The translations under genes and the position numbers were made by a program. The notes beneath the pieces were generated by a model. That model made no database searches, was not told the DNA's origin, and saw only the letters and a list, made by a program, of their open reading frames with translations. Of a stretch of 64,000 bases of DNA, positions 26,636 to 60,874 are shown piece by piece. Within the stretch, counting starts at the first letter, position 1. The number at the start of each line of letters is the position of its first letter. The DNA is from Desulfosarcina sp. BuS5 (GTDB lineage Bacteria > Desulfobacterota > Desulfobacteria > Desulfobacterales > BuS5). The stretch spans positions 2,771,041 through 2,835,040 of the forward strand of contig NZ_CP087952.1 in the NCBI RefSeq assembly GCF_028752835.1. The letters are read 5' to 3'.

Positions 26636-27676
26636 ATGATTAAGAGAAAGCAAAACATAATAATTTTCTGCCCAAACTGGGTCGGCGATGTTGTCATGGC
26701 CATACCCTTTTTCGATTCTATCCGCAGCAATTATCCGAATGCAACAATTACCGGTGTTGTAAGAAAATATGTCAAAGGCGTAATAGAAGACGGGCCCTGG
26801 TTTGATCATTTAATCCCCTGCAATGATAAAACAATTGCAGGTTTTTTTAAACTTTTGATAGAAATACGCAGCATCAAACCGGACATTACCATACTTCTGC
26901 CAAACTCCTTCAGATCTGCCTTGCTTGCCAGACTCGGCTTCTCCAAAAAAGTATTAGGATACCGTCGGGGAGGCAGGTCCCTGTTGTTGACCGGCGGTCC
27001 CGCACCGGTGTCTGATAAAAACGGATACCTGCCCATGCCCATGCAGGACTATTATATGAAAATTTGCAAATGGCTGGGGCTGGATATTTCTGCTGCCGTA
27101 AGACCCGCTCTCTTTATTTCAGAGACATTGAAAAAAAAAGGAGAACGACTTTTTGTAAAATATGGGATAAAACAAAAAGACATGCTCATCGGCATAAATC
27201 CCGGGGCAAAATTCGGTTCCTCCAAATGCTGGCCTCCCGTTTATTTTGCAAGGCTGGCTGAACTCCTCTCAGAAGAGTGGAACTGCAAAATTTTATTATT
27301 TGCAGGTCCGGGAGAGGATATCATAGCCGAAACCATAATAAAGGAGTCTTCGGCAAAAATAATAAATACAGGACCGGACAAGGTCGATCTTGCCCTTCTG
27401 AAATATCTCATACAGGGTTGCTCGCTTCTGATTACAAATGACACAGGGCCGAGGCATTATGCCGTAGCGCTTGATGTGCCTGTACTTGTGATCATGGGGC
27501 CCACCGATCACAGATATACAAATACCAATCTCGAAAAAACTGTTGTTTTGAGAAAAGAACTGGACTGCTCTCCATGCCATAAACCGGTTTGTCCAAAAGG
27601 GCATGAATGTATGCTGCTCATAAGCCCCGAGGATGTATTTCAAGCAGCCAAACAATTAATGAACCGTCAAAAATAA
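26636..27676 (+). CDS. waaF: Lipopolysaccharide heptosyltransferase II
   Basis: 346 residues, GT9 family. It transfers the second L-glycero-D-manno-heptose to the inner LPS core in the cytoplasm. Signatures are FCPNWVGDVVMAIPFFDSI at the N-terminus, INPGAKFGSSKCWPP opening the donor-binding lobe, and TNDTGPRHYAVALDVPV near residue 265. The late Cys-rich stretch LDCSPCHKPVCPKGHECM is common to this WaaF subtype. A second GT9-like gene follows almost immediately. Confidence 0.93.
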   Translation: MIKRKQNIIIFCPNWVGDVVMAIPFFDSIRSNYPNATITGVVRKYVKGVIEDGPWFDHLIPCNDKTIAGFFKLLIEIRSIKPDITILLPNSFRSALLARLGFSKKVLGYRRGGRSLLLTGGPAPVSDKNGYLPMPMQDYYMKICKWLGLDISAAVRPALFISETLKKKGERLFVKYGIKQKDMLIGINPGAKFGSSKCWPPVYFARLAELLSEEWNCKILLFAGPGEDIIAETIIKESSAKIINTGPDKVDLALLKYLIQGCSLLITNDTGPRHYAVALDVPVLVIMGPTDHRYTNTNLEKTVVLRKELDCSPCHKPVCPKGHECMLLISPEDVFQAAKQLMNRQK

Positions 27677-27696
27677 TCAATTCACAATTTCAAACT

Positions 27697-29184
27697 ATGC
27701 CTGACTCATCATACAGAAAAAAATGGTCTGAGCTGAAAAAAGAAAATATCAGGCCCGAAAATCTTGTCCGGCTGTCCCGGCAAATAGCATATTCATTCCT
27801 GGATCTCTACTTGAAGGACTGTCATTATGAAGAAGATTTCATAGACCTGCTCTGTGAAATGATGACTTTTTCAAAAAATCCCCAGCTTAACAATCCTGGC
27901 ACCCAGGCTCTTTTTGAAATAATCATAGAAAGACTATGCGATGACTTTGAAACTCTTCAAACAGAAACCTACAATCGGGTCATGACCCAGGTCATCTCTT
28001 TCTGCAGAACAATTCCCGAAGGCAATGAACTCAATAACCGGCTTAAAAAATTCATGATTCACTCTGATGATGATATGCTGCAACGGATAAACAGTATCAG
28101 GCTGAACGGAAACAAACTTGCAAATAAAGGCTTTATTAAAAAAATACTCATTCTGTCACGTGTTACCATCGGAGCGGATGTCGCCATAACCAGCATTGTT
28201 ATACAGCGCCTGGCAGAACTATATCCCGATGCTGAAATAGTTCTTATAGGAAACAGCAAGCTTAAAGAAGTTTACGGGGCAAATTCAAATATCAGAATTG
28301 AAGGAATTTCATATTCCAGAAAAGGCGGTCTTATGCCGCGTCTTTCGAGCTGGCACCGGGTTCTTGAGATTATAGACCGGGAGACTGCATCTGTTCATCT
28401 GGATAATATTGCCCTGATAGATCCTGATTCACGCCTGTCGCAATTGGGAGTACTGCCGCTGATTCCTGAAAATAATTATTTTTTTTTCGACAGCAGGTCC
28501 GACACTTCCTTTAACAAAAAAATGTCCATGGTTGAACTGACTAATAAATGGCTTGATGATATTACGGATAACATGGGGTTTAATTTTCCCAAAGTATGGA
28601 TACCTGATGAATACCTTCAGGTATCAGGTAAACTGTTCAACGATCTTCGTAATAACGGAGCAGAAAACATCATTGTGGCTAATTTTGGAGTAGGCGGCAA
28701 TTCACGTAAAAGTGTCGGTAAAAACCTTGAAAAAAAACTTCTGATCACTCTTTTACAAAAACCGAATACGGTTATCCTGCTGGATAAAGGGTTCGGCGAC
28801 CAGGAGACATTATCTATCAACGCTCTTATCGCAGAAATAGACAAGCAGGGATACCCCACCCGGCACTCAACATTCGGCTCAACCAAAAAAGAGCTGATTA
28901 ACTGGGGTGTAATAGGAATAGAGAGCGGCATAGGAGAGATAGCCGCCTTAATAGCAATGTCCGAGGAATTCATAGGTTATGACTCCGCTTGCCAGCATAT
29001 TTCCGCAGCGCTTGGGACACCTTGCCTGACAATATTTGCAGGTTCCAACAACATGCGTTTCATCAGGCGCTGGAGCGCGCACGGCCCCAACAGATGCAGC
29101 ATTGTTCATGTGGACACCCTGACCGACCCCCGCGCCGTTGAAGTGGATGATATTATCACACGCATAATGCAGTTAAGGATTTAA
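27697..29184 (+). CDS. GT9-like glycosyltransferase with N-terminal helical extension
   Basis: About 495 residues from the ATG at 27697. An earlier in-frame ATG at 27607 lies inside waaF and is unlikely. The first 140 residues are helical and do not match GT9. From ILILSRVTIGADVAITSIVI the rest follows the two-lobe heptosyltransferase pattern, ending with EEFIGYDSACQHISAALGTP, the counterpart of TNDTGPRHxAxALxxP in WaaF. The donor-site motif is changed (GYDSAC), so the donor sugar may differ. It lies 20 bases after waaF, probably the same operon. Confidence 0.75.
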   Translation: MPDSSYRKKWSELKKENIRPENLVRLSRQIAYSFLDLYLKDCHYEEDFIDLLCEMMTFSKNPQLNNPGTQALFEIIIERLCDDFETLQTETYNRVMTQVISFCRTIPEGNELNNRLKKFMIHSDDDMLQRINSIRLNGNKLANKGFIKKILILSRVTIGADVAITSIVIQRLAELYPDAEIVLIGNSKLKEVYGANSNIRIEGISYSRKGGLMPRLSSWHRVLEIIDRETASVHLDNIALIDPDSRLSQLGVLPLIPENNYFFFDSRSDTSFNKKMSMVELTNKWLDDITDNMGFNFPKVWIPDEYLQVSGKLFNDLRNNGAENIIVANFGVGGNSRKSVGKNLEKKLLITLLQKPNTVILLDKGFGDQETLSINALIAEIDKQGYPTRHSTFGSTKKELINWGVIGIESGIGEIAALIAMSEEFIGYDSACQHISAALGTPCLTIFAGSNNMRFIRRWSAHGPNRCSIVHVDTLTDPRAVEVDDIITRIMQLRI

Positions 29185-29261
29185 TTCCGTAATAAAAAAA
29201 ATAAACAAAAAGATTGACTTTACTTTTTCATCATTATATTTCTACAGAAAATATTTATTCA

Positions 29262-29412
29262 GGTGCTCATAAAGCATAAAAGGGAACCTCGTTAAAATCG
29301 AGGGCGAGCCCGTCGCTGTAATCGGGGACGAAAATTGCACAATGCCACTAACAAATTGTTGGGAAGGCGCAATTAATAGTTTGATCCGTAAGCCAGAAGA
29401 CCTGCCTGGGTA
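29262..29412 (+). promoter_or_regulatory. Cobalamin riboswitch (cassette A, orphan)
   Basis: All landmarks are present in order: AAAAGGGAACCTCG near 29276, GCCCGTCGCTGTAA, then CCACT and GGGAAGGCG, and the B12 box AAGCCAGAAGACCTGCC at about 29391-29407. A terminator follows at 29473. No corrinoid gene is downstream: the next gene is an acyltransferase at 29997, beyond a second terminator. Confidence 0.92.
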
Positions 29413-29472
29413 ACAGATGCAAACCTCGCGGAAAAAGGTTAGCAAAAAAATTCAAGGATAAAAAAGGGTAAT

Positions 29473-29509
29473 CCCTGAATCGATCAATTTCGATTCAGGG
29501 TTTTTTTTT
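29473..29509 (+). terminator. Rho-independent terminator after riboswitch A
   Basis: Stem CCCTGAATCG / CGATTCAGGG with an eight-base loop, followed by nine T. This is the expected expression platform for an OFF-type riboswitch. Confidence 0.85.
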
Positions 29510-29539
29510 GGGGAAAAGAAATTGCCCTGCCGAACGCTT

Positions 29540-29640
29540 AACGAGGGATGGAGTGCTTGTTCACTATGCTGATACCAATATGTTTTCCCCGCCTCAGCAT
29601 AAATGACAAAAACTTTTTCTTAACATCCCTCAAAGCATCT
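29540..29640 (+). ncRNA. Conserved hairpin following riboswitch A
   Basis: CGAGGGATGG (about 29543) pairs with ACATCCCTC (about 29624). The same stem appears after riboswitches B and C with different inner sequence. Function unknown. Confidence 0.45.
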
Positions 29641-29682
29641 TTCGCCGCAAGGCGAGCCGGAATGCCACCGGATCTCCTACCG

Positions 29683-29728
29683 AAAAAACCGGGCAACTAA
29701 CCGATATCTTCTCTTCGCCCGGTTTTTT
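29683..29728 (+). terminator. Second terminator of cassette A
   Basis: AAAAAACCGGGC and GCCCGGTTTTTT enclose a 22-base loop. It is symmetrical enough to work in both directions. Confidence 0.75.
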
Positions 29729-29734
29729 CATAGG

Positions 29735-29840
29735 TATAGATTTCAACATAAATAATTTCACTGCGTTATCGATCAAAACCTTCCGTCTACGTACTATCAG
29801 TGCGCCTCCTTCATCTTTTTCCCTATTACCCCCCCAAGAA
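29735..29840 (+). repeat. Palindromic repeat family P1 (left arm and core)
   Basis: Left arm TATAGATTTCAACATAAATA, constant linker CACTGCGTTATCG and an inner hairpin GTACTATCAGTGC. The right arm is not recognisable, so this copy is degraded. Follows cassette A. Confidence 0.55.
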
Positions 29841-29996
29841 TTTCTTTTGTATTCTGATGATAACTTAAGTATAAGAATTAAATTCAAAGAAAATATATTT
29901 ATTTAACACCTTGGGAAGTCTATACAAAAATAGCAACACAATGCTACCCTATGCTATAGAAACCGTTGCTAATTCTTTTACAGGAAATAAAATGCC

Positions 29997-30473
29997 ATGC
30001 AAAATAATATCAATGTTATCGCCCCGGACGTCAAACTGGGGAGAGATGTCACTATTTATAATTTTGTTAATCTTTACGGGTGTAAAATCGGGGACGAAAC
30101 CAGGATCGGCGCCTTTGTGGAGATCCAAAAAAATGTAACCATCGGCAAGCGGTGCAAAATCCAGAGCCACACCTTTATATGCGAAGGAGTTGTGATTGAG
30201 GATGAGGTTATGGTCGCCCACGGCGTCATGTTCATAAATGACAAAGATCCTGGCGCTGTGAACCCGGATGGATCATTGAAAAGCGAAAAAGACTGGATTT
30301 GCACCCCTACCATAGTAAAAAAAAGGTCTGCCATAGGGAGCAATGCCACGATTATGTGCGGCATAACCATCGGGGAGGGGGCGCTGATCGGCGCAGGGGC
30401 CGTGGTCACCAAAGATGTTCCCCCTGACACCATAGTAACAGGAAACCCTGCAAAAATATTAAAAAAAAGATAA
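29997..30473 (+). CDS. Hexapeptide-repeat acyltransferase (WlbB/WbpD-like)
   Basis: 158 residues forming a left-handed beta helix, with repeated I-G-x-x-x-x steps ([20 protein letters not shown], later [20 protein letters not shown]). The end [20 protein letters not shown] is typical of sugar N-acetyltransferases that acetylate UDP-3-amino sugars for O-antigen. Active-site His candidates are in [10 protein letters not shown]. Probably participates in surface polysaccharide synthesis, consistent with waaF nearby. 30474-30744 shows no gene. Confidence 0.87.
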
Positions 30474-33259: not shown

Positions 33260-33365
33260 GCTTTAATATAATGATTTTGGGTGCGTTATCGGTCGTCGGA
33301 GTATTATAATACGCCTTCCCCCCCTCTGACCTTCCCAAAATCATTATATTAAAGCCTATATTAAA
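33250..33365 (+). repeat. Palindromic repeat family P1 with perfect 32-bp arms
   Basis: The arms 33250-33281 and 33334-33365 are exact inverse copies (32 of 32). The core holds the constant linker GTGCGTTATCGGTCGTCGG and palindrome GTATTATAATAC. It fills the radC-mpl gap and overlaps the last codons of radC. The mpl ribosome site lies directly after it. Confidence 0.85.
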
Positions 33366-40966: not shown

Positions 40967-42244
40967 TTATAACGGATTTAGGGGAGGCCTACCATAGCCC
41001 CTCAAAGAAGCCGAAACATAAAGGTTGTGCAGCCAATTATCGTGGTACCTGAACTTGTTTAACCGTTCAGCCGGACTTTTTAGCCCATGTAGTTTTTCTA
41101 CGGTACGTGGATTATAGGGCGCAAAATTCTGGATAAGAACCCAACCTCTGATGCTCAGTTCGGCTGAGGCCATGGAACCATGAAAATATTGGACGCTGAA
41201 CAGGTGACGATCCATTCTTTGCATCAGCCGGTCGACCATATTACTGGTTCTATGGGCATTCGGGTGTTCATAAGCCACTTTATATTCAGCAATATTCTTG
41301 CGTAACTTTGCGATGGGCTTTGAAATAACGGCTGGCATCTCCTTTTTCTTGCACCACTCTACAAGTCTTCTGACTCGTTGTGAAAATGACCGCTTGTTCT
41401 CGGCATGATAACAGTCCCAAAGTTTTGAGGGGGCTTCAGTGAAAATGTCTTTGTACTTCTTTTTGGCCCTGTCGCGTATCTTGATGAAAATATGCAAAAA
41501 GCAACATATGATAACGACAGAGGTGAACAGAAATTTCCAGGCGTTTCGCGTGGCCTGCCACCCATCCATGTTGACTGTGGTGGGTGTGTAGTCCGGTTTT
41601 AAGCATTGCGCTTCATCTTTGAATACTTGGTAAGCATTACGCAAAGATTGCTCTCCAGCATCGCCGGCTATGGATGCACCAAGAATACATTCGTCGCCAA
41701 CCGTGGTGGCAACATAAACCTTATCACCCAGGATCCAGGTATGTTTCTCATCGGCTGCCAAATGATCGGGGATATCGTCAGCGTCTCTGACGGTTGTTCC
41801 GACAATGCTGTTGCGTCCCAGAGCCTGTTCCAACCGATACCAGTACATCGGATCTCTGCCGAAAACATAACTCAATGCCCAGAAAGGAACATTGAATTTT
41901 CTCAGGAAAAGGGGTTTTTCGACTTCATCTGTCATTCCTGCCATATATGGCGTTACAAACGAGGGGCGTATCGTATAGGCGGTGCCCGCAATTTCAATCC
42001 GACGGACCATAATGGACTGCTTTTTTGAATAGTAAGAATCTTTCATCCGGTATCCCCCGGTGATTTCAGGGGGGAACAACTCATTATTCGACGCAATGTA
42101 CTCGTCAATGCATTTGCGAAAACCAGCAGCGTTTCGGATGTTATCGTTATAGACCTCTTGCAAAAAGGGCAAACATATGGTTTTATTATTCTGGGTAGTG
42201 GATCCTGTATCTGCTTTTCCCATATGGTTTCCAGGTAGGAGCAT
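40967..42244 (-). CDS. IS transposase, main exon (interrupted by the intron)
   Basis: About 420 codons of a DDE transposase with GYRMKDSYYSKKQSIMVRRI, HLAADEKHTWILGDKVYVAT (first Asp) and TTVNMDGWQATRNAWKFLF (second). The 5' exon, MVRDKSTPKEVSS, lies at 44497-44534. If the intron ends just before the T of the shared ACCTGG, splicing gives an in-frame join. The first four codons of this entry (MLLP) would then be intron sequence. Without splicing the protein lacks only a short N-terminus. Confidence 0.75.
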   Translation of the reverse strand: MLLPGNHMGKADTGSTTQNNKTICLPFLQEVYNDNIRNAAGFRKCIDEYIASNNELFPPEITGGYRMKDSYYSKKQSIMVRRIEIAGTAYTIRPSFVTPYMAGMTDEVEKPLFLRKFNVPFWALSYVFGRDPMYWYRLEQALGRNSIVGTTVRDADDIPDHLAADEKHTWILGDKVYVATTVGDECILGASIAGDAGEQSLRNAYQVFKDEAQCLKPDYTPTTVNMDGWQATRNAWKFLFTSVVIICCFLHIFIKIRDRAKKKYKDIFTEAPSKLWDCYHAENKRSFSQRVRRLVEWCKKKEMPAVISKPIAKLRKNIAEYKVAYEHPNAHRTSNMVDRLMQRMDRHLFSVQYFHGSMASAELSIRGWVLIQNFAPYNPRTVEKLHGLKSPAERLNKFRYHDNWLHNLYVSASLRGYGRPPLNPL

Positions 42245-44496
42245 CGGTTACCCGACGCCCCCCCTACAGACCCGTACGTGAAGATTTCCCTCATACGGTT
42301 CCTCGGTTCAAATCCTTTTTACCGGATTATCAACCAAACAGGCGACACCCCGTTTGGCGTATAACTTTGCAGCCCTTACGGCATCAAATATTATGGACTA
42401 TTCTGGGTAATGGCAGTGGGTATGTTGTGCGCAAGTCCTCGAACATTACTTCGCCCTTGTGACTTCTTCGGCTTAACCATCGACGCCATGCTTTCTCAGT
42501 ATATTCAAACACAACTTCCAGCACTTTGTAGTTACTTATTACTCCAAAGTACTGGTAAAAACCTCGCAGTTTACTGCAAAGAATCTCATACTGCTCGGCC
42601 ATTGGCTTATGACGGTTATCCTTGCACCATATCCATATTCTCTTCATAAAACGGCTTGAACGCTTTCTTGCCGTCTTTTTCTTTATTACCATGTACCCTT
42701 TTAATGATTTTGACCAGTAAAATGTAAACCCTAAAAAATCAAACGTCCCGTTTCCCTTTCCGCTAATGCGTTTGGAAAATCGAATCAGTTTTGTCTTTTC
42801 CGGGTGAAGTGACAGCTCGAACTGTTCGAACCGCCTGGGTAATACATCCATGACACGCAATGCGTCTTTTTCATACTCGAACCCGAGGATGAAATCATCC
42901 GCCCAGCGTATGATGGAGCATCTCCCTTTCATCCGGGGGATCACTTCTTTCACGTACCAGTCATCTAAAACATAATGAAGAAAGATATTACTGAGCACAG
43001 GGGAAATTACTCCTCCCTGTGGAGTGCCCGTTTCAGAGTACGTCAGGTTGCCTTCCTCCATTACGCCTGCATTCAACCACTTCCCTATCAGGCGAATCAT
43101 TCCGCCGTCACTTACTCTCCGACGTATCATGTCTTTAAGTAACTCGTGATTAATATTGTCAAATAGTCCTGTAATATCTGCGCTTACTATCCAGCTGATA
43201 TTCTGCTTCAAGCATTGCTCACGTAAATCTTTGATTGCCATGTGTTGGCTCCGACCTTTTCTGAATGCATGGGAAAAATTGTAAAAATTCCTGTCAAATA
43301 TGACATTCAATATGGCTGCTGCTGCTTTCTGGACAATTTTATCCTCAAGTACAGGTATGCCAATTGGACGCTTTTTCCCTCCTTCCTTGTCTATCCAGAT
43401 ACGCTTTACAGGAGACGCAACGTACTGTCCTCTCCGCAGTCGTTCATACAGATTATAGAGGTTTTGATCAAGATTTTCGGCATACTCCTTTGCCGTAACC
43501 TTGTCCACTCCTGCAGATTTGCTTTTCCGAATTTTACGAAAGGATTGTTTCAGTAAATCAAAGTCTATCCGATGGACTACTGATGTAAATACCAGTTCAG
43601 GATTACTTTGAGCAAGCAGCTCGATTTTGATAAGGGATGACCCACCTGTTAACACCGGTGGTTGTCCCCATTCTATCGGTCTGGAATTGCAAGCGACCGT
43701 TCTTGCAATTTCTCGGCTTTTTGTTGATATGGTTTGTGACATCTGTGTATCTCCCATAATTCCTGCCAAAAAAACGTTATACCCTGCTTCACCTTCCCTG
43801 CAGTGGGTCGCTTGGGCATCACTTCCCCACCTTTCCGATCAAGATAGTTCAATTCTTAATCATCGGTACTATGATCTGCTAAGACTTCCGAATGTTTATC
43901 TCAGGTTCGTTCGCTCTTCGCTATCCTCCCCTGATACCTTGTATCGCCCATCTTTTAATGTTTGTGTTTCTGCCAATGGCAGACTCGTTGCAAGGCGGGA
44001 CATTCCTATGCAACGCCGGGATTTCGCTTGCGCTGGATTTCCTGTTACCGTTCTTTTTACCCAAGGAAACATCCGGGTCTCCCAAGTTCCCGAGCTACCC
44101 CTTTGAGTACATGCCCTGGTCTAAGACCCCGGTGGTGTCCTGAATACTTGCCTTAGCATATTCAGGACTGCTGCCTTCCGCTGTCTCCAAAGCGTCGGCT
44201 TTTTCCTGCAAGCAGGATTATCACAATGACCACAACCATACATTTTTCGGGGCTCAATACAGAGCCTGCAATCTTGCTCCGTCCAGCTCCAGACTCCCGT
44301 TACCGGGTTTACCTGTGGACTTCGCTACTGACCTGCTGGTTAGTCTTTAGTCAGGTGGGACTATCTTAACATCAATGCCAGAGCAAGCCCTGCAGAGATG
44401 AAGGAAACAAACCGTTTCCCGAGCACCCACTTGGTAACAATATCGAGTTTCAAAGACCTTGTGTCTTATCCCAACGATTCGGATTTATCTTGGCAC
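42233..44496 (-). mobile_element. Group II intron, copy 1
   Basis: The 5' end GTGCCAAGATAAATCC (at 44496) and the 3' end ...GATGCTCCTACC bound a 2.26-kb element. The catalytic domain V hairpin is recognisable at about 42260-42300 (minus strand GAACCGTATGAGG ... CACGTACGGG), followed by domain VI. Boundaries are good to a few bases, set by comparing the three copies. Confidence 0.88.
42384..43769 (-). CDS. ltrA: Group II intron reverse transcriptase/maturase, copy 1
   Basis: 461 residues. RT blocks include the motif VTAKEYAENL, then YDIQY-opposite core features such as TGTPQGGVISPVLSNIFLHY and the catalytic RWADDFILGFE near residues 288-291. The C-terminal maturase X-like region (RRWLSRRSHKG) ends without an HNH endonuclease domain. 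It reverse-transcribes and helps fold the intron. Identical to the other two copies, so spread is very recent. Confidence 0.93.
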   Translation of the reverse strand: MAGIMGDTQMSQTISTKSREIARTVACNSRPIEWGQPPVLTGGSSLIKIELLAQSNPELVFTSVVHRIDFDLLKQSFRKIRKSKSAGVDKVTAKEYAENLDQNLYNLYERLRRGQYVASPVKRIWIDKEGGKKRPIGIPVLEDKIVQKAAAAILNVIFDRNFYNFSHAFRKGRSQHMAIKDLREQCLKQNISWIVSADITGLFDNINHELLKDMIRRRVSDGGMIRLIGKWLNAGVMEEGNLTYSETGTPQGGVISPVLSNIFLHYVLDDWYVKEVIPRMKGRCSIIRWADDFILGFEYEKDALRVMDVLPRRFEQFELSLHPEKTKLIRFSKRISGKGNGTFDFLGFTFYWSKSLKGYMVIKKKTARKRSSRFMKRIWIWCKDNRHKPMAEQYEILCSKLRGFYQYFGVISNYKVLEVVFEYTEKAWRRWLSRRSHKGEVMFEDLRTTYPLPLPRIVHNI

Positions 44497-46029: not shown

Positions 46030-46181
46030 ATAGATTGTCAGATAATTACCCTATTGTAAAATTTGCTTACAATTTGTTTGCAATTTGGCACATGGCCAGA
46101 TGAAGAATGAGGGGTTCAACATCTTGAGCCCTACTCCTACGACCGATAACCCGGTGAAATTATTTATGTGACACTCTATAG
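46030..46181 (-). repeat. Palindromic repeat family P1
   Basis: Arms TAGATTGTCAGATAATTACC and, in inverse, TATAGAGTGTCACATAAATA. The linker GACCGATAACCCGGTGAAAT is conserved. The inner hairpin GAGGGGTTCAACATCTTGAG with GCCCTAC is imperfect. Confidence 0.65.
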
Positions 46182-46326
46182 CTCTAAAAATGTTCTATTT
46201 TTCCCTTAATATATAAATATTAAGATACTAAAACTTCATTGCAGCGGCTTACTTGAACCAGGACATGGAACCGACGCGCTGAAACGCGCATTTCATGCCA
46301 GACATTCAGCGTCAAGGATAGCGACC

Positions 46327-49455: not shown

Positions 49456-49539
49456 AATATTGACTAAAAAATAAAAAAACAAGTTTTCTGAAAAAAGTTT
49501 AATTCCGTAATAAAAAAAAAATAAACAAAAAGATTGACT

Positions 49540-50847
49540 CAGTAGTGTCCGGTTAAGTTTTTGCATATAGCATTTGCTCTTTGATAATCAGATTATTAGA
49601 CCATACGTTTTTTTCGTCAGTACGTAATTCGTTCTGGATGGTATTTCTAAGCTGACGAATCCTCTTTATTGATACAGGTTCATTAAACTGTTCATGGCAG
49701 TATATGGCCATAAGCAGGTAGGTTATTAACCCCGCAAGGATTTGAACCATCAGGCCATATCTACTGTGAGCAATCAAGTGGTACACTTTTAAATGTTTCT
49801 TCCACCATTTGAAAAAAGTTTCGATATCCCATCTAAGCTTATAAACGGTTGCAACCTGCTCGGCTGTAAGATCATAACGATCAGTTGCCACAAAATATTT
49901 GACACCGGCAATTTTATAACCAACCAGTCGAACCGGCTTTCTGGTCTGGTTTACCCCAGGAGTGCCAAGAAGAACCACAGCATCATAAAAAATATAGCTG
50001 TCGGGATCAACAGGCTGCTCTTTGATAATAGTTCTTGTTGTTTTCGCTTTGATGCGGCAAACAAAATGTTTTTTTTCATCCTGAAGAAGATCAAAATCCT
50101 TATGTGATTGATACCCCCGATCCATGATTCCTGTTTGGCCTTTTGTAAGGATAGACCTGACAAAGGGGCGTTCAGCGCCATTTCCATTTGTCAGATGAAT
50201 TTTTATAGGAATCTTGCGATTGACATCAAAGCCGAAATGGCCTTTTGCTTTTTTAGCGCCTTTTCTGTAATCAGCCCAGTACATGGACAGAACTGCATCA
50301 ATTAAAGATCCATCAATGGAAACGAGTTCACCGAGATCTGAATAATTTGATGGTAAAGCATTTTGTGCCTGGCTGCAAAGAGCTTGAAAAACATATTCAA
50401 GCTGTTCAAGCCCTCGAGAATTGATAATTTCGGAAAAACTGCTACGACTGATCCCTCCATCTGGAGCGACACATTCTTTGGCAAAATCGTCTTCTTTAAG
50501 GTGTTGAATAAGATCACGAGCTGATTCATGTTCTTGTAGATGGAAAAATATCAGTGCGTGAAGCTGATCTTCAAAAGTCATTTTCAATGGCCTGTGACCT
50601 CGGGATTTAAGCTGTGGCGTGTCAGGAAAAATCTTTTGCAAAGGTTTGAGAAATCGAGCATGAGATTGGGGATTAAAATTCTTTTTTGGGATATTGAATA
50701 TGTCCATTTTTGTCTTAACTCCTTGTTATAATTATATTTTATAACAAAACGATAAAAAATTTTTATTTGGTTTGTCAAGTAAAAAATGAACATTTTTCTA
50801 ATTTTTTTATCCCATATAACATGCAAAAACCTAACCGGACACTACTG
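49540..50847 (-). mobile_element. IS4-family element, copy 1
   Basis: 1308 bp between inverted ends CAGTAGTGTCCGGTTA and (inverse) CAGTAGTGTCCGGTTA. A 9-bp target duplication AGATTGACT is found at 49531-49539 and 50896-50904. The undisturbed target sequence is seen at about 29210 in cassette A. The right end is repeated once more at 50848-50895. Confidence 0.95.
49553..50707 (-). CDS. IS4-family transposase, copy 1
   Basis: 384 residues with the IS4 DDE core: LVSIDGSLIDAVLSMYWADY (first Asp), GIMDRGYQSHKDFD (second), and the YREK signature YKLRWDIETFFKWWKKHLK. The N-terminal domain (FEDQLHALIFFHLQEHESAR) is the DUF4372-like part. Intact and identical to copy 2. Confidence 0.95.
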   Translation of the reverse strand: MDIFNIPKKNFNPQSHARFLKPLQKIFPDTPQLKSRGHRPLKMTFEDQLHALIFFHLQEHESARDLIQHLKEDDFAKECVAPDGGISRSSFSEIINSRGLEQLEYVFQALCSQAQNALPSNYSDLGELVSIDGSLIDAVLSMYWADYRKGAKKAKGHFGFDVNRKIPIKIHLTNGNGAERPFVRSILTKGQTGIMDRGYQSHKDFDLLQDEKKHFVCRIKAKTTRTIIKEQPVDPDSYIFYDAVVLLGTPGVNQTRKPVRLVGYKIAGVKYFVATDRYDLTAEQVATVYKLRWDIETFFKWWKKHLKVYHLIAHSRYGLMVQILAGLITYLLMAIYCHEQFNEPVSIKRIRQLRNTIQNELRTDEKNVWSNNLIIKEQMLYAKT

Positions 50848-50895: not shown

Positions 50896-50952
50896 AGATT
50901 GACTTTACTTTTTCATCATTTTATTTTTATAAAAATAAAAAATATTTATTCA

Positions 50953-51101
50953 GGTGCTCATAAAGCATAAAAGGGAACCTCGTTAAAATCGAGGGCGAGC
51001 CCGTCGCTGTAATCGGGGACGAAAATTGCACAATGCCACTAACAAATTGTTGGGAAGGCGCAATTAGTAGGTTGATCCGTAAGCCAGAAGACCTACCTGG
51101 G
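50953..51101 (+). promoter_or_regulatory. Cobalamin riboswitch (cassette B, orphan)
   Basis: Almost identical to cassette A. AAAAGGGAACCTCG, GCCCGTCGCTGTAA, CCACT, GGGAAGGCG and the B12 box AAGCCAGAAGACCTACC are all present. Its upstream region is split by the IS4 at 49540. Downstream come two terminators, repeats and an AraC-type gene; no corrinoid gene. Confidence 0.92.
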
Positions 51102-51162
51102 TAACAGATGCAAACCTCGTGGCCAAGGGTTAGCAAAAAAATTCAAGGATAAAAAAGGGTAA

Positions 51163-51201
51163 TCCCTGAATCGATTAATTTCGGTTCAGGGATTTTTTTT
51201 T
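51163..51201 (+). terminator. Terminator after riboswitch B
   Basis: CCCTGAATCGA pairs with TCGGTTCAGGG (one G-T pair) and a run of nine T follows. Confidence 0.8.
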
Positions 51202-51231: not shown

Positions 51232-51330
51232 AACGAGGGATGGGGTGCTTGTTCACTATGCTTACACATAGCAATATATTTTATCCGCCTCAGCATAAAT
51301 GACAAAAACTTTTTCTTGACATCCCTCAAA
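51232..51330 (+). ncRNA. Conserved hairpin following riboswitch B
   Basis: CGAGGGATGG at about 51234 pairs with ACATCCCTC at about 51320. Inner sequence differs from cassette A around the loop (CTATGCTTACACATAGC forms its own small hairpin). Confidence 0.45.
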
Positions 51331-51378
51331 GCATCTTTCACCGCAAGGCGAGCCGGAATGCCACCGGATCTCCTACCG

Positions 51379-51426
51379 AAAAAACCGGGCAACTAACCGA
51401 TACATTCTCTTCGCCCGGTTTTTTCA
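51379..51426 (+). terminator. Second terminator of cassette B
   Basis: AAAAAACCGGGC and GCCCGGTTTTTT, as in cassette A. Confidence 0.75.
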
Positions 51427-51430
51427 TAGG

Positions 51431-51535
51431 TATAGATTGTTACATAAATAATTTCACTGCGTTATCGGTCGTTGGAGTATTACAATACGCCTTCCTCCCC
51501 CTGGCCTTGTGAAATTTATTATCTGACAATCTATA
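51431..51535 (+). repeat. Palindromic repeat family P1
   Basis: Arms TATAGATTGTTACATAAATA and (inverse) TATAGATTGTCAGATAATAA, linker CTGCGTTATCGGTCGTTGG, inner palindrome GTATTACAATAC, second linker CCCCCTGGCCTT. Both arms complete. Confidence 0.8.
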
Positions 51536-51716
51536 TAGAGGCTGTTACCTCCAAAGCTGCAACCAGCACGCCCTAAAATTAATTAAAAAATAATATAGTA
51601 TTGAAATCGATAAAGCCCGAATAACCATTGGAGGCTCACTCAAAAATAAAATACCGAATTAGTTATTTTTTAGTGAGCCCCTTAGGTGAAACAGGAATAC
51701 CCGAAAGCTCATTATC

Positions 51717-51771
51717 AAAAAAAGCCGGGTTGCCGAAATTTCTGCATATTTCAGCAACCCGGCTTTTTTTT
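51717..51771. terminator. GCCGGGTTGC hairpin terminator
   Basis: AAAAGCCGGGTTGCCGAAAT pairs with ATTTCAGCAACCCGGCTTTT. A near copy follows the intron at 58828. Works in either direction. Confidence 0.8.
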
Positions 51772-51818
51772 GTTACAAGCGACAAAAAATTAAGGGGTGA
51801 ACGAAGTAGGAGCACACA

Positions 51819-52178
51819 ATGCAAACACACGTTAAACAAATTAATATCGCAAAAGCCGTTAATTTTATCGATACTCATTGCATAATGCCATTATCACTTG
51901 ACGAAGTTGCCAGAGAGAGCGGCATGAGTAAATTTTATTTTGCAAGAACCTTCAAGTCGGTTACCGGCACAACCTTCAAAAATTATCACAATCACAAAAG
52001 AATTGAAAAAGCAAAAAACATGTTCCTGCAACAAAAAATAAGCATAACAGATGTCTGTTTTTCCATCAGGTTTAACGATGTCTCATACTTCAACAGGGTT
52101 TTCAAAAAAATCGAGGGAACCAGCCCGTCTTGCTTTAAAAAAAGGCTCATCATGGATTCCAGGTTATTATCGAAATAA
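51819..52178 (+). CDS. AraC-family HTH protein (DNA-binding domain only)
   Basis: 119 residues consisting of just the two helix-turn-helix motifs: LSLDEVARESGMSKFYFART and ISITDVCFSIRFNDVSYFNR. Then comes the usual end GTSPSCFKKRL. No effector domain. It could be a truncated regulator or a stand-alone MarA/SoxS-type activator. A start with a plausible AAGGGG site lies upstream. The 52190-52314 stretch has a GCGGGCGTTTAGCCCGC hairpin that may terminate it. Confidence 0.8.
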   Translation: MQTHVKQINIAKAVNFIDTHCIMPLSLDEVARESGMSKFYFARTFKSVTGTTFKNYHNHKRIEKAKNMFLQQKISITDVCFSIRFNDVSYFNRVFKKIEGTSPSCFKKRLIMDSRLLSK

Positions 52179-52314: not shown

Positions 52315-53622
52315 CAGTAGTGTCCGGTTAAGTTTTTGCATATAGCATTTGCTCTTTGATAATCAGATTATTAGACCATACGTTTTTTTCGTCAGTACGT
52401 AATTCGTTCTGGATGGTATTTCTAAGCTGACGAATCCTCTTTATTGATACAGGTTCATTAAACTGTTCATGGCAGTATATGGCCATAAGCAGGTAGGTTA
52501 TTAACCCCGCAAGGATTTGAACCATCAGGCCATATCTACTGTGAGCAATCAAGTGGTACACTTTTAAATGTTTCTTCCACCATTTGAAAAAAGTTTCGAT
52601 ATCCCATCTAAGCTTATAAACGGTTGCAACCTGCTCGGCTGTAAGATCATAACGATCAGTTGCCACAAAATATTTGACACCGGCAATTTTATAACCAACC
52701 AGTCGAACCGGCTTTCTGGTCTGGTTTACCCCAGGAGTGCCAAGAAGAACCACAGCATCATAAAAAATATAGCTGTCGGGATCAACAGGCTGCTCTTTGA
52801 TAATAGTTCTTGTTGTTTTCGCTTTGATGCGGCAAACAAAATGTTTTTTTTCATCCTGAAGAAGATCAAAATCCTTATGTGATTGATACCCCCGATCCAT
52901 GATTCCTGTTTGGCCTTTTGTAAGGATAGACCTGACAAAGGGGCGTTCAGCGCCATTTCCATTTGTCAGATGAATTTTTATAGGAATCTTGCGATTGACA
53001 TCAAAGCCGAAATGGCCTTTTGCTTTTTTAGCGCCTTTTCTGTAATCAGCCCAGTACATGGACAGAACTGCATCAATTAAAGATCCATCAATGGAAACGA
53101 GTTCACCGAGATCTGAATAATTTGATGGTAAAGCATTTTGTGCCTGGCTGCAAAGAGCTTGAAAAACATATTCAAGCTGTTCAAGCCCTCGAGAATTGAT
53201 AATTTCGGAAAAACTGCTACGACTGATCCCTCCATCTGGAGCGACACATTCTTTGGCAAAATCGTCTTCTTTAAGGTGTTGAATAAGATCACGAGCTGAT
53301 TCATGTTCTTGTAGATGGAAAAATATCAGTGCGTGAAGCTGATCTTCAAAAGTCATTTTCAATGGCCTGTGACCTCGGGATTTAAGCTGTGGCGTGTCAG
53401 GAAAAATCTTTTGCAAAGGTTTGAGAAATCGAGCATGAGATTGGGGATTAAAATTCTTTTTTGGGATATTGAATATGTCCATTTTTGTCTTAACTCCTTG
53501 TTATAATTATATTTTATAACAAAACGATAAAAAATTTTTATTTGGTTTGTCAAGTAAAAAATGAACATTTTTCTAATTTTTTTATCCCATATAACATGCA
53601 AAAACCTAACCGGACACTACTG
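52315..53622 (-). mobile_element. IS4-family element, copy 2
   Basis: 1308 bp, same ends as copy 1. The flanks (TATTAGCT left, AGTGGGTCT right) show no target duplication, which points to a rearrangement through the element. Confidence 0.93.
52328..53482 (-). CDS. IS4-family transposase, copy 2
   Basis: 384 residues, identical in translation to copy 1. DDE residues and the YKLRWDIETFFKWWKKH signature are intact, so it should be active. Confidence 0.95.
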   Translation of the reverse strand: MDIFNIPKKNFNPQSHARFLKPLQKIFPDTPQLKSRGHRPLKMTFEDQLHALIFFHLQEHESARDLIQHLKEDDFAKECVAPDGGISRSSFSEIINSRGLEQLEYVFQALCSQAQNALPSNYSDLGELVSIDGSLIDAVLSMYWADYRKGAKKAKGHFGFDVNRKIPIKIHLTNGNGAERPFVRSILTKGQTGIMDRGYQSHKDFDLLQDEKKHFVCRIKAKTTRTIIKEQPVDPDSYIFYDAVVLLGTPGVNQTRKPVRLVGYKIAGVKYFVATDRYDLTAEQVATVYKLRWDIETFFKWWKKHLKVYHLIAHSRYGLMVQILAGLITYLLMAIYCHEQFNEPVSIKRIRQLRNTIQNELRTDEKNVWSNNLIIKEQMLYAKT

Positions 53623-53623
53623 A

Positions 53624-54325
53624 GTGGGTCTCAGTATTGTTCTCGTTTTTTTTATGATGCAGGTAGGGCCGGCATTTGGAGATTACAGCTTAACCACAAT
53701 AAGGGACCTTGATCGATTTGATAAAAATAGAATAACTTTTCAATGGCCTACAGGGCTATCTAGTTTAAAAGTATGGGAAAGACTGGCTGAACCAGGAGAG
53801 GTGCCTCTTACCACCGTGCCAAAACTGGCAAATAAACCCCATTATGCCCCTATAAAGGATTGTGCCACGCTTACAGTTAATAAAAAGGGTAATTTTTTTG
53901 ATTCACGAGTCACAACTCTCTTTTGGCCGCCGGCTGACGGAACCCTTACCATAGATTGGACATTTAAAGTAAAAAGTAAGCTTGATAAAGATCCGGGAAT
54001 TGTCGGATATGGATTCGAATTTTATGATTCCGACTTCAATGGGATTGATGAAAATATCAATATAACCTCCGCTGGGAGCGATGTTTTTCCTAATTGGGAA
54101 TTCAGTGATGGTTTATTGGATTTTTATGATCCAACGTTTGAAAACTATGTCGATTTAAATGAATGGGTGACTTTTGACTTTACAATGGAGATAAACGGCC
54201 TGGAAGAGGATCAATGGTGCAAGCAGTTTGGTGTGCGTCAATATGACATAGTTCCTGTCCCGGGCGCGCTATGGCTTCTCGGCTCTGGTTTAATCGGTCT
54301 TATCGTACTGAGAAGAAAAATTTAG
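53624..54325 (+). CDS. Exported protein with VPxPGA-type C-terminal sorting tail, signal peptide cut by IS4
   Basis: 233 residues. The only start is a GTG two bases after the IS4 end, leaving a bare hydrophobic stretch (VLVFFMMQVGPAFG) without the basic leader. The original start codon and ribosome site were replaced by the IS. The body is beta-rich and unrecognised. The end VPVPGALWLLGSGLIGLIVL plus RRK is a PEP-CTERM-like (VPLPA-type) signal for exosortase anchoring. Export is probably impaired unless the IS supplies a start. Confidence 0.75.
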   Translation: MGLSIVLVFFMMQVGPAFGDYSLTTIRDLDRFDKNRITFQWPTGLSSLKVWERLAEPGEVPLTTVPKLANKPHYAPIKDCATLTVNKKGNFFDSRVTTLFWPPADGTLTIDWTFKVKSKLDKDPGIVGYGFEFYDSDFNGIDENINITSAGSDVFPNWEFSDGLLDFYDPTFENYVDLNEWVTFDFTMEINGLEEDQWCKQFGVRQYDIVPVPGALWLLGSGLIGLIVLRRKI

Positions 54326-54346
54326 TTTTTGATTTATAATGCAAAT

Positions 54347-54376
54347 AAAAAACCGGATCCGGAGGGTCCGGTTTTG
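54347..54376 (+). terminator. Terminator of the VPxPGA protein gene
   Basis: AAAACCGGATCC / GGGTCCGGTTTT stem directly after the gene. Confidence 0.8.
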
Positions 54377-54476
54377 AAATAACCCCTGGAAGGGGATAAA
54401 ATTGTCTTTGCCCACCCTCTTCCCTGCTTCTCTTGGTGTTTACATGCCCAGGTATCATTTCTGCGTCCAAACCTAC

Positions 54477-54604
54477 TATAGATTTTCAGATAATTACCTG
54501 ATTTTAAAATTTGGCACAAGGCCAGGGGGGGTAGGGGTTCAAAATCTTGAACCCCTACTTCGACGACCGATAACGCAGTGAAATTATTTATGTGGAAATC
54601 TATA
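54477..54604 (-). repeat. Palindromic repeat family P1
   Basis: Arms TATAGATTTTCAGATAATTA and (inverse) TATAGATTTCCACATAAATA. The inner hairpin is a perfect 12-bp stem GTAGGGGTTCAA / TTGAACCCCTAC, unlike that of other copies. The linker CGACGACCGATAACGCAGTG is unchanged. Confidence 0.8.
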
Positions 54605-54780
54605 TATCGACACAGCAGCCTTTGGCACAGGATTGCCCCAACTGGTTTCTTAATCCAGCTTCTTAAAACAGGTTCATAACGGATTAGTGTGGTAATCCAT
54701 GATGAACAGCTAATACATACCTAATGGCATAAGTTGAATTAGTATATGCTCAATAAATAGAATCTCCATAATAATCCGCT

Positions 54781-55005
54781 ATGACCCAAAAAAATTACAC
54801 ATCTCTGCTTCGTCAACTTGAAGGCGGAGCCATGCATGCCGAAGTCACTTTTCACAGCGAGGATAAATTCGGAAAACGTTATACGGCGGATATTACCGTC
54901 AAAGGAATGGAAGGTCGGTGCGCTGTCGTAAAAACAGGATGGATCGTAACTTCCGAAATCAGGGAAGCTCATCTCGTAACACTTTATGTAAGGAAAAAAA
55001 TATGA
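54781..55005 (+). CDS. DUF6883-like small protein
   Basis: 74 residues. DITVKGMEGRCAVVKTGWIV then LVTLYVRKK follows the pattern of DUF6883 domains, usually the C-terminal part of contact-dependent or polymorphic toxin-like proteins. No signal sequence. Its stop overlaps the next start by four bases, like a small toxin-antitoxin or toxin-immunity pair. Confidence 0.6.
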   Translation: MTQKNYTSLLRQLEGGAMHAEVTFHSEDKFGKRYTADITVKGMEGRCAVVKTGWIVTSEIREAHLVTLYVRKKI

Positions 55006-55346
55006 GACCGGATATAGGAGATATAGTCGAAATTATAATAGACATCCCTGAAAAAAACCTGCGTGCCGGAGTGCGGGGGGCGGTTGTTCATTGTCACGGC
55101 AATGATGCTTACGAAATCGAATTTGCCGATGATGAGGGAGAAACTCTTGATTTCTTAGCCATGCATACAAAACACTTTATCGTTGTATGGCGGGCGGAAA
55201 CCCGGCAATGGATTCCAATTGCGGAACAAGCTTCGGTACTGGTTGCCGGTTTGCCCGATGATGCGGCAAAAGAAGTTCTGGATTTTGCACGTTTTCTGTT
55301 TGTACGGAGTTGTCAGTCCGCCAGTTATGAAAACATAGCTACATAG
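55002..55346 (+). CDS. DUF4926 domain protein with DUF2281-like C-terminal extension
   Basis: 114 residues from the ATG at 55002. The first 65 residues (RPDIGDIVEIIIDIPEKNLR then GVRGAVVHCHGNDAYEIEFA) are DUF4926, commonly found beside DUF6883. The extension AGLPDDAAKEVLDFARFLFV resembles DUF2281, an antitoxin-type helix. The fusion is unusual, since DUF4926 proteins are normally near 70 residues. Likely partner of the preceding gene. Confidence 0.65.
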   Translation: MRPDIGDIVEIIIDIPEKNLRAGVRGAVVHCHGNDAYEIEFADDEGETLDFLAMHTKHFIVVWRAETRQWIPIAEQASVLVAGLPDDAAKEVLDFARFLFVRSCQSASYENIAT

Positions 55347-55371
55347 AAACGAGGGCTAAGGATCGGAGGTT

Positions 55372-55522
55372 AAATAAATTGGACAAAGATTATGAAGGAT
55401 TTTGGTTCATCTGCAAGGCGCATTAAAGGTTGAATACTCGAAGTATTCGGCTTTTAATGCAACACAGCAGATGGGCCAAAAGACAAATAATATTGTTCAA
55501 GTTATTTCATTTGCGATCCTAA
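55372..55522 (+). repeat. Palindromic repeat family P2, copy 2
   Basis: Inverse of 40813-40963 with few changes. The same CATCTGC/GCAGATG and GCATTAAAGG pairings are visible, with GAATACTCGAAGTATTC at the tip. Confidence 0.7.
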
Positions 55523-55525
55523 GGG

Positions 55526-55707
55526 TTCGCTCAAAAATAAATTTACAGAATTGGCGCTCAGATTTAGGTTGAAGTTGTACGATCCGATTGAGCAAAGCCG
55601 CAGGAATAGCAAGCTATTTCGAGGACTTTGCGTAATGAGGATCGTGCAAATACAGCCTGAAGCTGAGATGCCAAAATGTGAAGTTATTTTTGAGTGAGTC
55701 CTAAGGG
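55526..55707. repeat. Long nested palindrome (family P3)
   Basis: Outer arms GTTCGCTCAAAAATAA and (inverse) GACTCACTCAAAAATAA. Inside, TTGGCGCTCAG pairs with CTGAGATGCCAA, TACGATCC with GGATCGTGC, and GCAAAG with CTTTGC. A short version of the outer pair occurs at 51630-51680. No coding frame. Confidence 0.6.
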
Positions 55708-55967
55708 TTCGGCAAAAAAATAACGTCCACAACTACGCGCCTACTTGTGGAAGTTATTTTGTCCCCATTTCGTATTTCCTGTTTTTTCCAAATCATAGCT
55801 CATCATTTAATCATACAAATCACAGTTCAGACATTCTTCACAGCTTATCAGTTTTTTTAGTTCCCATTGCTCCAGCGAGGGAATGCATACCATATGGGGG
55901 TTCCCACCCTGAAAGATGGGAACCTTCGTTCCCGGACTCTGCCTGAAGATAAAAAAAATAAAAAAAA

Positions 55968-56090
55968 AAAAATAGCAATATAGTCCAAGTATTTCATTTT
56001 TTATTGGTGTATGGTGACTTAAATTTAAAAAATAATTAAAAAAATAGCAATATAGTCCAAGTATTTTATTTTTTGTTGATGTATTGTGAA
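55968..56090. repeat. Tandem 68-bp duplication before riboswitch C
   Basis: AAAATAGCAATATAGTCCAA then GTATTTYATTTTTTRTTG occurs twice, starting near 55970 and 56040. It probably duplicates the promoter region of the riboswitch transcript. The 55708-55967 region otherwise holds only a GGTTCCCA/TGGGAACC hairpin near 55890. Confidence 0.65.
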
Positions 56091-56097
56091 TAAAAAT

Positions 56098-56262
56098 TGT
56101 TGATGCAGAAAAGGGAAAACGGTGAAAATCCGTTGCTGCCCCGCAACTGTAAATCCCGGTTCCGTGTAAAACGGAATCAGAGTCCGTCCATTTTAAGCCA
56201 CTATCCTTATATTACGGATGGGAAGGCGGCCGGACCGGGAAAGTCAGGATATCTGATCTGTA
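56098..56262 (+). promoter_or_regulatory. Cobalamin riboswitch (cassette C)
   Basis: AAAAGGGAAAACGGTGAAAA, then CCGTTGCTGCCCCGCAACTG, GCCACT, GGGAAGGCGG and the B12 box AAAGTCAGGATATCTG at about 56240-56255. A fuller match to the consensus than cassettes A and B. It points at the surface-protein genes 59-61.7 kb, now separated by an antisense group II intron. Confidence 0.93.
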
Positions 56263-56268
56263 TCTCAC

Positions 56269-56367
56269 AGGCTTTAAGATAATAATTTTGGGAAGGCCGG
56301 AGGAAGGAAGGCGTATTATAATACTCCGACGACCGATAACGCACCCAAAATCTTTATCTTAAAACCT
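56269..56367 (-). repeat. Palindromic repeat family P1
   Basis: Arms AGGCTTTAAGATAATAATTT and (inverse) AGGTTTTAAGATAAAGATTT, core GTATTATAATAC with linker CGACGACCGATAACGCA. Same arm class as the radC-mpl copy, with a paired base change. Confidence 0.8.
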
Positions 56368-56381
56368 GTAACTGCCACAAA

Positions 56382-56480
56382 CTCCGGCGAGGGATGGAGC
56401 GGCAGGAAAAGATACCTTATATAACAGCGCCCGCCCAGGGTATCGATTCTTACCGTTTTTCCTGACATCCCTCCCATTAA
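56382..56480 (+). ncRNA. Conserved hairpin following riboswitch C
   Basis: GCGAGGGATGGAG pairs with ACATCCCTCCC. Inside, CAGGAAAA/TTTTCCTG and GATACC/GGTATC form further stems. Same outer stem as in cassettes A and B. Confidence 0.5.
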
Positions 56481-56558
56481 AAATTTGCAGTATTGAAATC
56501 GATAAAGCCCAACCCGCCGTGAGGCGGACTCAGGAATGCCCAGGGTCTCATTTTTCCA

Positions 56559-58821: not shown

Positions 58822-58827
58822 GAGGAG

Positions 58828-58875
58828 AAGCCGGGTTGCCGAAATTTCATTATATTTCAGCGGCCCGGCTTTTTG
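58828..58875. terminator. GCCGGG hairpin terminator
   Basis: AAGCCGGGTTGCCGAAAT pairs with ATTTCAGCGGCCCGGCTT and is followed by T-rich sequence. It matches 51717-51771 and marks where the uninterrupted cassette C resumes. 58876-59010 has short ACACAGAT repeats and no gene. Confidence 0.75.
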
Positions 58876-59009
58876 TTTTGTTACAAGTGATGAAATAATG
58901 GGACACAGATGCACACAGATAAACACAGATAAGTTTGGAAGTGCGAACGGTTACTTTTAACCAAGGCCTGCTTTGCGGGCCTGATTTAAAACATGCTTTA
59001 TAAAAAAAG

Positions 59010-59369: not shown

Positions 59370-59381
59370 GGAGGCTTTGAA

Positions 59382-60152: not shown

Positions 60153-60187
60153 AATTGCAACTTAAAAGAATAAGGAGGAATAGTGGA

Positions 60188-60817: not shown

Positions 60818-60874
60818 TTTTGAATTTTGAGTTTTCAATTATAAATTAAGGAAAAATATTAAGGAGAAATGATT

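Follow-up and report, generated by a model that had tools for sequence, protein, structure and literature searches.

A cobalamin riboswitch cassette without a gene in Desulfosarcina sp. BuS5: a candidate B12-repressed stand-alone RNA

What does a cobalamin riboswitch control when no corrinoid gene stands behind it? Riboswitches are usually read as switches of the adjacent gene, and a locus of Desulfosarcina sp. BuS5 (contig NZ_CP087952.1, positions 2,771,041 to 2,835,040) does not fit that reading. We analysed this whole stretch of 64,000 nucleotides, here called the window, and all coordinates without a contig name refer to it. At 29185-29735 we found a cassette, named A, composed of a cobalamin aptamer, a terminator (T1), a long hairpin (hairpin 2), a conserved 3' module and a second terminator (T2), with no open reading frame (ORF) of its own. 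The same gene-free slot is conserved in a congener, G001 (JAGGWL010000053.1, isolate AUK125), and the hairpin architecture is common to a second copy (B), a third orphan aptamer in the window and another congener, G002. We consider it moderately probable that cassette A specifies a stand-alone RNA, repressed by B12, acting through its 3' module and gated like EutX and Rli55. The parts of cassette A are as follows.

29185-29243, plus strand: leader with a promoter-like TTGACT at 29214-29219, read from the sequence
29244-29423, plus strand: cobalamin riboswitch aptamer (RF00174)
29473-29509, plus strand: intrinsic terminator T1, an 11-bp stem (29473-29500) followed by nine T, from the terminator scan
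29543-29631, plus strand: hairpin 2, GAGGGAUG...CAUCCCUC, by folding
29641-29656, plus strand: GNRA (GCAA) hairpin of the 3' module, by folding, with a GUGA-loop counterpart in the third orphan and G002
29657-29681, plus strand: CCGG-AAUGCCA-CCGG hairpin and single-stranded AUCUCCUACC (candidate seed), inside the conserved module 29637-29689
29682-29729, plus strand: terminator-like hairpin T2, GAAAAAACCGGGC...GCCCGGTTTTTTC, by folding, with a 13-bp stem and T6

The Rfam scan of the window gave a full-length aptamer of 111.8 bits (E 3.4e-27). Behind it, hairpin 2 had a minimum free energy of -27.6 over a 98-nt stretch, with z -4.7 against 300 dinucleotide shuffles. The 22-nt loop of T2 exceeds the limit of the simple terminator scan, so T2 was not listed there. 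The preliminary description of this DNA had named the riboswitch, both terminators and the hairpin between them without a corrinoid gene, and all were recovered. No ORF of at least 60 aa was present in the ORF list on the plus strand between 29184 and 29911, and the ORF at 29911-30138 overlaps the next gene. This gene (29997-30473, plus strand) encodes a hexapeptide acyltransferase (Pfam Hexapep, 84.3 bits), as had been stated, and no corrinoid gene was revealed by the ORF and Pfam reading of 29185-29735 and the next gene. Upstream lies a glycosyltransferase-9-like (GT9-like) gene at 27607-29184. The two minus-strand ORFs opposite the cassette (67 and 85 aa, TTG starts) make no convincing gene. 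Nothing near the gathering score of a known Rfam RNA was found behind the aptamers, at 29440-29990 or 51420-51830. The candidate seed is complementary to a Shine-Dalgarno-like, purine-rich ribosome-binding sequence, and an open stretch of this kind is the usual look of a pairing small RNA (sRNA).

A near-identical unit had been noted at 49.5-51.5 kb. It is copy B, which shares 462 of 487 aligned bases with A and is split by an insertion sequence. The third orphan (56069-56553 plus 58826-58875) was missed by the first reading of the sequence, and is interrupted by a group II intron on the opposite strand.

49500-49540, plus strand: upstream piece of cassette B, severed by the insertion sequence, a 95% match to positions 1-40 of the A query
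50935-51114, plus strand: cobalamin aptamer of cassette B (RF00174, 111.0 bits)
51162-51200, plus strand: T1 of cassette B, by folding
51235-51327, plus strand: hairpin 2 of cassette B, by folding, structure alignment and covariance model
51337-51425, plus strand: 3' module and T2 of cassette B, 52 of 53 and 39 of 41 bases the same as in A
51594-51771, plus strand: additional tail of the third type downstream of B, closed by terminator T3, by alignment to the G002 tail
51819-52178, plus strand: AraC-type helix-turn-helix (HTH) gene behind B, 119 aa (Pfam HTH_18, 76.9 bits), a possible ancestral target
56069-56274, plus strand: cobalamin aptamer of the third orphan (RF00174, 69.0 bits), 187 of 206 bases the same in G002
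56389-56473, plus strand: hairpin 2 of the third orphan, with ends GAGGGAUGG ... ACAUCCCUC like those of A, 83 of 92 bases the same in G002 over 56385-56476
56513-56550, plus strand: 3' module of the third orphan, with a GUGA (GNRA) hairpin, CAGGAAUGCCC and UCUC, by alignment to the A module
58826-58875, plus strand: T3 of the third orphan, past the group II intron, from the sequence and a DNA match (58828-58890) to T3 of B

We propose from sequence likeness that the three orphan cassettes are paralogues. All three aptamers scored above the Rfam gathering score of 31.5 bits. The module of the third orphan aligned to that of A with a score reached by three of 1000 shuffles, and its intact G002 copy with one reached by none of 1000. 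Copy B holds an A-type end and, farther on, the third-type tail with T3, whose alignment to the G002 tail scored 85 (shuffle mean 24.1, none of 1000 shuffles as high). A T1-type terminator stands behind the aptamer in A, B and G001; none is present next to the aptamer of the third orphan, where a palindromic repeat occupies that place. The insertion sequence in the B leader (transposase 49553-50707, minus strand, Pfam DDE_Tnp_1) repeats GATTGACT at both sides, and therefore the -35-like TTGACT of B survives. The same 384-aa DDE transposase element flanks B twice (49553-50707 and 52328-53482), with more copies in loci L030 and L032.

In G001, cassette A lies between the same two genes and is likewise gene-free. 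Forty-six sites group A with B and set G001 aside, whereas the two alternative groupings have 13 and 8; B was thus duplicated after the lineage had parted from G001. In G002 the third type is intact, without the intron, and gene-free for 660 nt to the next ORF of at least 100 aa. The comparison with relatives revealed no cassette directly before a corrinoid gene, and among 58 genomes the part behind T1 matched only this genome (twice) and G001 (once). A hairpin 2 pattern gave four matches in 194 genomes, three here and one in G002, all behind these aptamers, with none for the reversed control; this pattern misses the diverged G001 hairpin. Two more distantly related versions of the upstream gene (L131 and L132, 58-59% identity) have no riboswitch at that place, and in another relative, L130, the sequence ends inside the gene.

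These comparisons bear on the two explanations first offered for the locus. That the controlled gene was lost twice does not apply, A and B being one cassette duplicated after the G001 split. Simple gene loss appears unlikely, because G001 has the gene-free A in the same slot and G002 a gene-free third type; with no ORF in the cassette and an identical gene-free slot in G001, a pseudogene origin was rejected as well. For copy B, the AraC-type gene 704 nt downstream may once have been the controlled gene. A stand-alone B12-responsive RNA, the other explanation, fits the gene-free slot and the conserved 3' module better than gene loss.

To judge conservation between A and G001, the fourfold sites of the two flanking genes were used as a yardstick (180 of 244 identical when pooled, 74%), with very unequal identity between the GT9-like gene (0.80, 150/187) and the acyltransferase gene (0.53). 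The aptamer (165 of 180 bases identical) and the 3' module (29637-29689, 51 of 53, 96%) exceeded the pooled sites by Fisher test with p 2e-6 and p 1e-4, and T1 (39 of 43, 29471-29513) with p 0.02. Aptamer (p 0.002) and module (p 0.005) stay conserved when the slower-evolving GT9-like gene is the sole reference. Identity was 40/47 in the linker, 36/41 in T2 (29690-29730), 67/87 plus 18 gap columns in hairpin 2, and 30/49 (61%) in the leader; after T2 it fell to 97 of 221 aligned bases with 262 gap columns.

Hairpin 2 appears to be kept as a fold across A-type and third-type despite diverged helices. In each of the five sequences it is more stable than its shuffled versions (z -2.3 to -4.7). When A, B, the third orphan and G002 were aligned by structure, 98 of 100 possible pairs formed, and 10 of 25 pairs were changed on both sides between the two types; these counts lean towards structure, since the sequences were aligned to suit it and only two types are independent. 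One of these pairs also differs on both sides between the third orphan (G-C) and G002 (A-U). An arm-mixing control, which depends less on the fitted alignment, gave 7-12 of 17 inner pairs for arms of different types and 15-17 within types. G001 was left out of alignment A3 and the hand alignment because the MAFFT alignments A1 and A2 misplaced its end. A covariance model (R1) from a MAFFT alignment without G001 found the G001 hairpin with 34 bits (E 9e-6) in a search space of 322,943 bases from 50 sources, where the best match outside the family had E 0.16.

How unusual is such a gene-free aptamer? The genome (4.18 Mb, two contigs, 97% complete) contains nine cobalamin aptamers. Six precede genes for uptake or corrinoid synthesis or for a porin: TonB-dependent receptor genes (L001 and L005), an operon with a cytochrome-c-assembly-like protein, a FecCD/BtuC-like permease and a TonB receptor (L004), a CbiK cobaltochelatase operon (L006), an LbtU-family porin (L007), and a ThiC-family gene plus cobT (L008). 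The other three, all in the window, are the orphans described here; a corrinoid gene directly behind the aptamer, which is usual and not strictly defining, was found at none of them. For comparison, cmscan revealed 24 cobalamin aptamers in 20 of 27 loci of other genera, and the first same-strand ORF of at least 100 aa, called mechanically as in all these distances, begins within 251 nt in 21 of them. Of the remaining three, two lead a tandem pair and have a second aptamer behind them (526 and 557 nt), and the third has only 589 nt of contig left. The same distance is 573 nt in A, 704 nt in B, 742 nt in G001 and 660 nt in G002, with no such ORF within 1500 nt of the third orphan; in L006 of this genome it is 606 nt, and an 87-aa ORF lies within that stretch. 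The orphan state is thus unusual.

If cassette A works as we propose, transcription would start in the leader. With sufficient B12 the aptamer would bind it and transcription would stop at T1, near 29510. Under B12 shortage the polymerase would read through hairpin 2 and the 3' module and stop at T2, releasing an RNA of about 500 nt. We propose gating of T1 by B12 because it is analogous to the terminators before the receptor genes and to published B12-gated RNAs. The active piece would be the 3' part, comprising the GNRA hairpin, the CCGG hairpin, the exposed AUCUCCUACC and the terminator, because the 3' module is the best conserved part next to the aptamer and its open stretch is complementary to purine-rich ribosome-binding sites. 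It would most likely act by pairing with the ribosome-binding sites of target messenger RNAs. Neither Hfq nor CsrA was found, so this pairing would proceed without Hfq or another protein would take part. Promoter, B12 response, transcript, seed and target are all what we infer for cassette A from its anatomy. It is possible, if somewhat doubtful, that one Desulfobacterales genus has in these cassettes a new family of regulatory RNAs gated by B12. Its three paralogues would act in trans on messenger RNAs without Hfq, CsrA or ANTAR proteins, and each would join a cobalamin riboswitch to a long conserved hairpin and to a 3' module in which an anti-Shine-Dalgarno-like stretch is exposed.

Several results weigh against the stand-alone RNA. 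The promoter scan did not list the TTGACT of A, a weak promoter match; the G001 leader also has TTGACT, and there the scan gives TTGACT-16-TAAACT. T1 and T2 are not significantly conserved against the GT9-like gene alone, and hairpin 2 is no more conserved between A and G001 than fourfold sites in either test (p 0.67); in G001 it has an outer-stem mismatch and lacks the U-rich bulge. Between the third type and G002 all parts are near the fourfold value of 0.89, at which selection cannot be shown. The A-type occurs in two species only, and the genomes of G001 and G002 are drafts of 82-83% completeness. Weak constraint could also be read from the fact that, of the three copies here, B is interrupted upstream by the insertion sequence and the third by the group II intron. 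No match to Hfq (PF17209), which an Hfq-dependent base-pairing sRNA would need, was found in this genome, the control being positive in 5 of 14. A search for seed targets with at most one mismatch gave seven sites, two cassettes included and five places outside them, versus eight for the reversed control. In a duplex-energy ranking at 143 gene starts the B12 genes rank 30-119.

Its first places went to four identical starts of group II intron reverse transcriptases and one ORF in L035, and the ranking was not used further. Among the seed matches, L105 (C1:88864) and L107 (C1:987210) have the same start region CGATAGGAGATCATAATGAAGGCAG, with a one-mismatch match to the seed complement just before the start, not above the control. 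A CsrA sponge of the CsrB/RsmZ type was also rejected: no PF02599 match was found in the genome, and GGA is no more frequent than in shuffled sequences for A, B, the third orphan and G001. The ANTAR site motif consists of two hexaloop hairpins with A1 and G4 of the loop. Zero or one single hexaloop hairpin was found per sequence, never a pair (shuffle means 0.58-1.13), and ANTAR sequestration was therefore rejected; no EutV-type ANTAR response regulator was found in the genome, whose single ANTAR protein is of GAF-ANTAR type. The likeness to the eut RNAs suggested earlier thus holds for the gating logic and fails for the ANTAR-type double hairpin and its response regulator.

The strongest rival is that the cassette is the leader of the AraC-type regulator gene, still in place behind B and lost from A and the third orphan, with the extra hairpins as further attenuators. 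In L050 (1030-2198) of G051, a genome of the same order, two cobalamin aptamers in tandem precede the HTH gene of a homologue (47% identity over 110 aa), which begins about 118 nt past the second of them; this regulator is thus a B12-riboswitch gene in one relative, and the whole family could therefore derive from its leader. In B the gene starts about 50 nt after T3, but three terminator-like hairpins separate it from the aptamer, and the L050 leader gave no match to the hairpin 2 model. A has been gene-free since before the G001 split, B is by the site counts above the younger copy, and the module of A is conserved without the gene, so that this rival, which we regard as unlikely, would explain B and not the conserved gene-free A. 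An ordinary long 5' untranslated region of downstream envelope genes, with two serial attenuators before the acyltransferase gene in A, seems improbable. The downstream gene is the same in G001, but T2 and about 265 nt of the poorly conserved sequence after it lie in between, B and the third orphan have different downstream genes, and the acyltransferase is not a corrinoid gene.

Non-functional debris, that is, leaders of riboswitches that recombination or mobile elements have copied and that persist by chance, we hold to be equally improbable. The region is crowded with insertion sequences, group II introns and palindromic repeats of about 110 bp, and the disrupted copies and the fourfold rate of hairpin 2 in A agree with such decay; the conservation of aptamer and 3' module beyond fourfold sites does not, nor does a hairpin fold kept although its helices diverged. 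Less probable still is a short peptide encoded by the 3' module, with the sequence MPPDLLPKKPGN in A and B and MPPDLLPKKPGKQPIPAFRPVFS in G001. The ATG and the next 10 codons are identical in all three (frames read by eye) and an AAGG stands 9 nt upstream, but this AAGG is paired within the GNRA hairpin, the species differ in how the frame ends, and the counterpart in the third orphan and G002 shows no such frame in the alignment by eye. The B12-repressed stand-alone RNA remains our preferred reading for cassette A.

The surroundings of the cassettes are rich in repeated elements. Palindromic repeats of about 105 bp (ends like TATAGATT...) lie inside two aptamers of this genome, in L006 (1501-1790) and L007 (1501-1785), by eye in the L5 loop and the peripheral joining region; these aptamers (C1:280322 and C1:511847) keep 99 and 89.5 bits despite the repeat. 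The same repeat seems to lie inside the first aptamer of the L050 tandem pair. One half of it has about 40 genomic matches, and the window holds six full or partial copies (29732-29774, 33282-33361, 46132-46183, 51428-51540, 54477-54604 and 56277-56373). It adjoins all three orphan cassettes, which at such density may be chance. The cassette itself was rejected as a genome-wide dispersed repeat: besides aptamers and terminators, only the 40-90 nt after T2, the palindromic repeat, recur. A 289-nt cobalamin aptamer in L058 (1588-1876) has a long insertion in one arm that is unlike this repeat. At least three closely similar minus-strand group II introns were found (42229-44364, 56554-58689 and 62161-63701), one of which cuts the third orphan before T3. 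Around the third orphan, 53624-61741 contains a cluster of PEP-CTERM-like secreted proteins plus DUF4465 and DUF4926 genes; only 53624-54325 passes the Pfam PEP-CTERM cut-off, the rest being assigned by eye.

Within the genome, the closest likeness is to the L001 and L005 riboswitches, which have a homologous aptamer and linker (query positions 78-296 are 74% identical to L001); at those loci the terminator has the receptor gene directly behind it, whereas cassette A continues with hairpin 2, the 3' module and T2. In the open-access literature we found nothing on a riboswitch with an sRNA in Desulfobacterota, or on a cobalamin riboswitch with the AraC family in Deltaproteobacteria, and the B12-gated non-coding RNAs described in PMC8079631 and PMC7602753 come from Enterococcus and Listeria. 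EutX of Enterococcus faecalis and Rli55 of Listeria monocytogenes are described as a B12 riboswitch and terminator before a stand-alone RNA made only without B12, carrying an ANTAR site that sequesters EutV (PMC7602753). Cassette A resembles them in anatomy, with a B12 aptamer and its terminator followed by a separate RNA that ends in a second terminator, and differs in lacking the ANTAR motif above chance. AspocR of L. monocytogenes, a long RNA antisense to the adjacent pocR gene (PMC8079631), is likewise a non-coding RNA under a B12 riboswitch that acts on another transcript, but no convincing gene lies opposite cassette A. SreA of the same species is derived from a S-adenosylmethionine (SAM) riboswitch, pairs in trans as a short terminated RNA and also controls its downstream operon in cis (PMC8079631). 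The proposed likeness is that of a trans-acting RNA derived from a riboswitch; SreA senses SAM and is active in the terminated form, in contrast to the read-through form proposed here.

By sequence, the cassette shares its gating logic with EutX, Rli55 and AspocR, without the ANTAR feature that defines the eut RNAs. If the cassettes are such a family of regulatory RNAs, this lineage would have a B12-responsive trans-acting RNA with a mechanism other than in the eut and pocR cases, and a conserved family of gene-free B12 riboswitches with their own structured cargo in Desulfobacterales would mean that the arrangement arose elsewhere too. It would offer a test case of which messenger RNAs a corrinoid-dependent anaerobe controls by RNA under B12 shortage. 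It also cautions that gene loss should not be the default label for orphan riboswitches in metagenome-assembled genomes.

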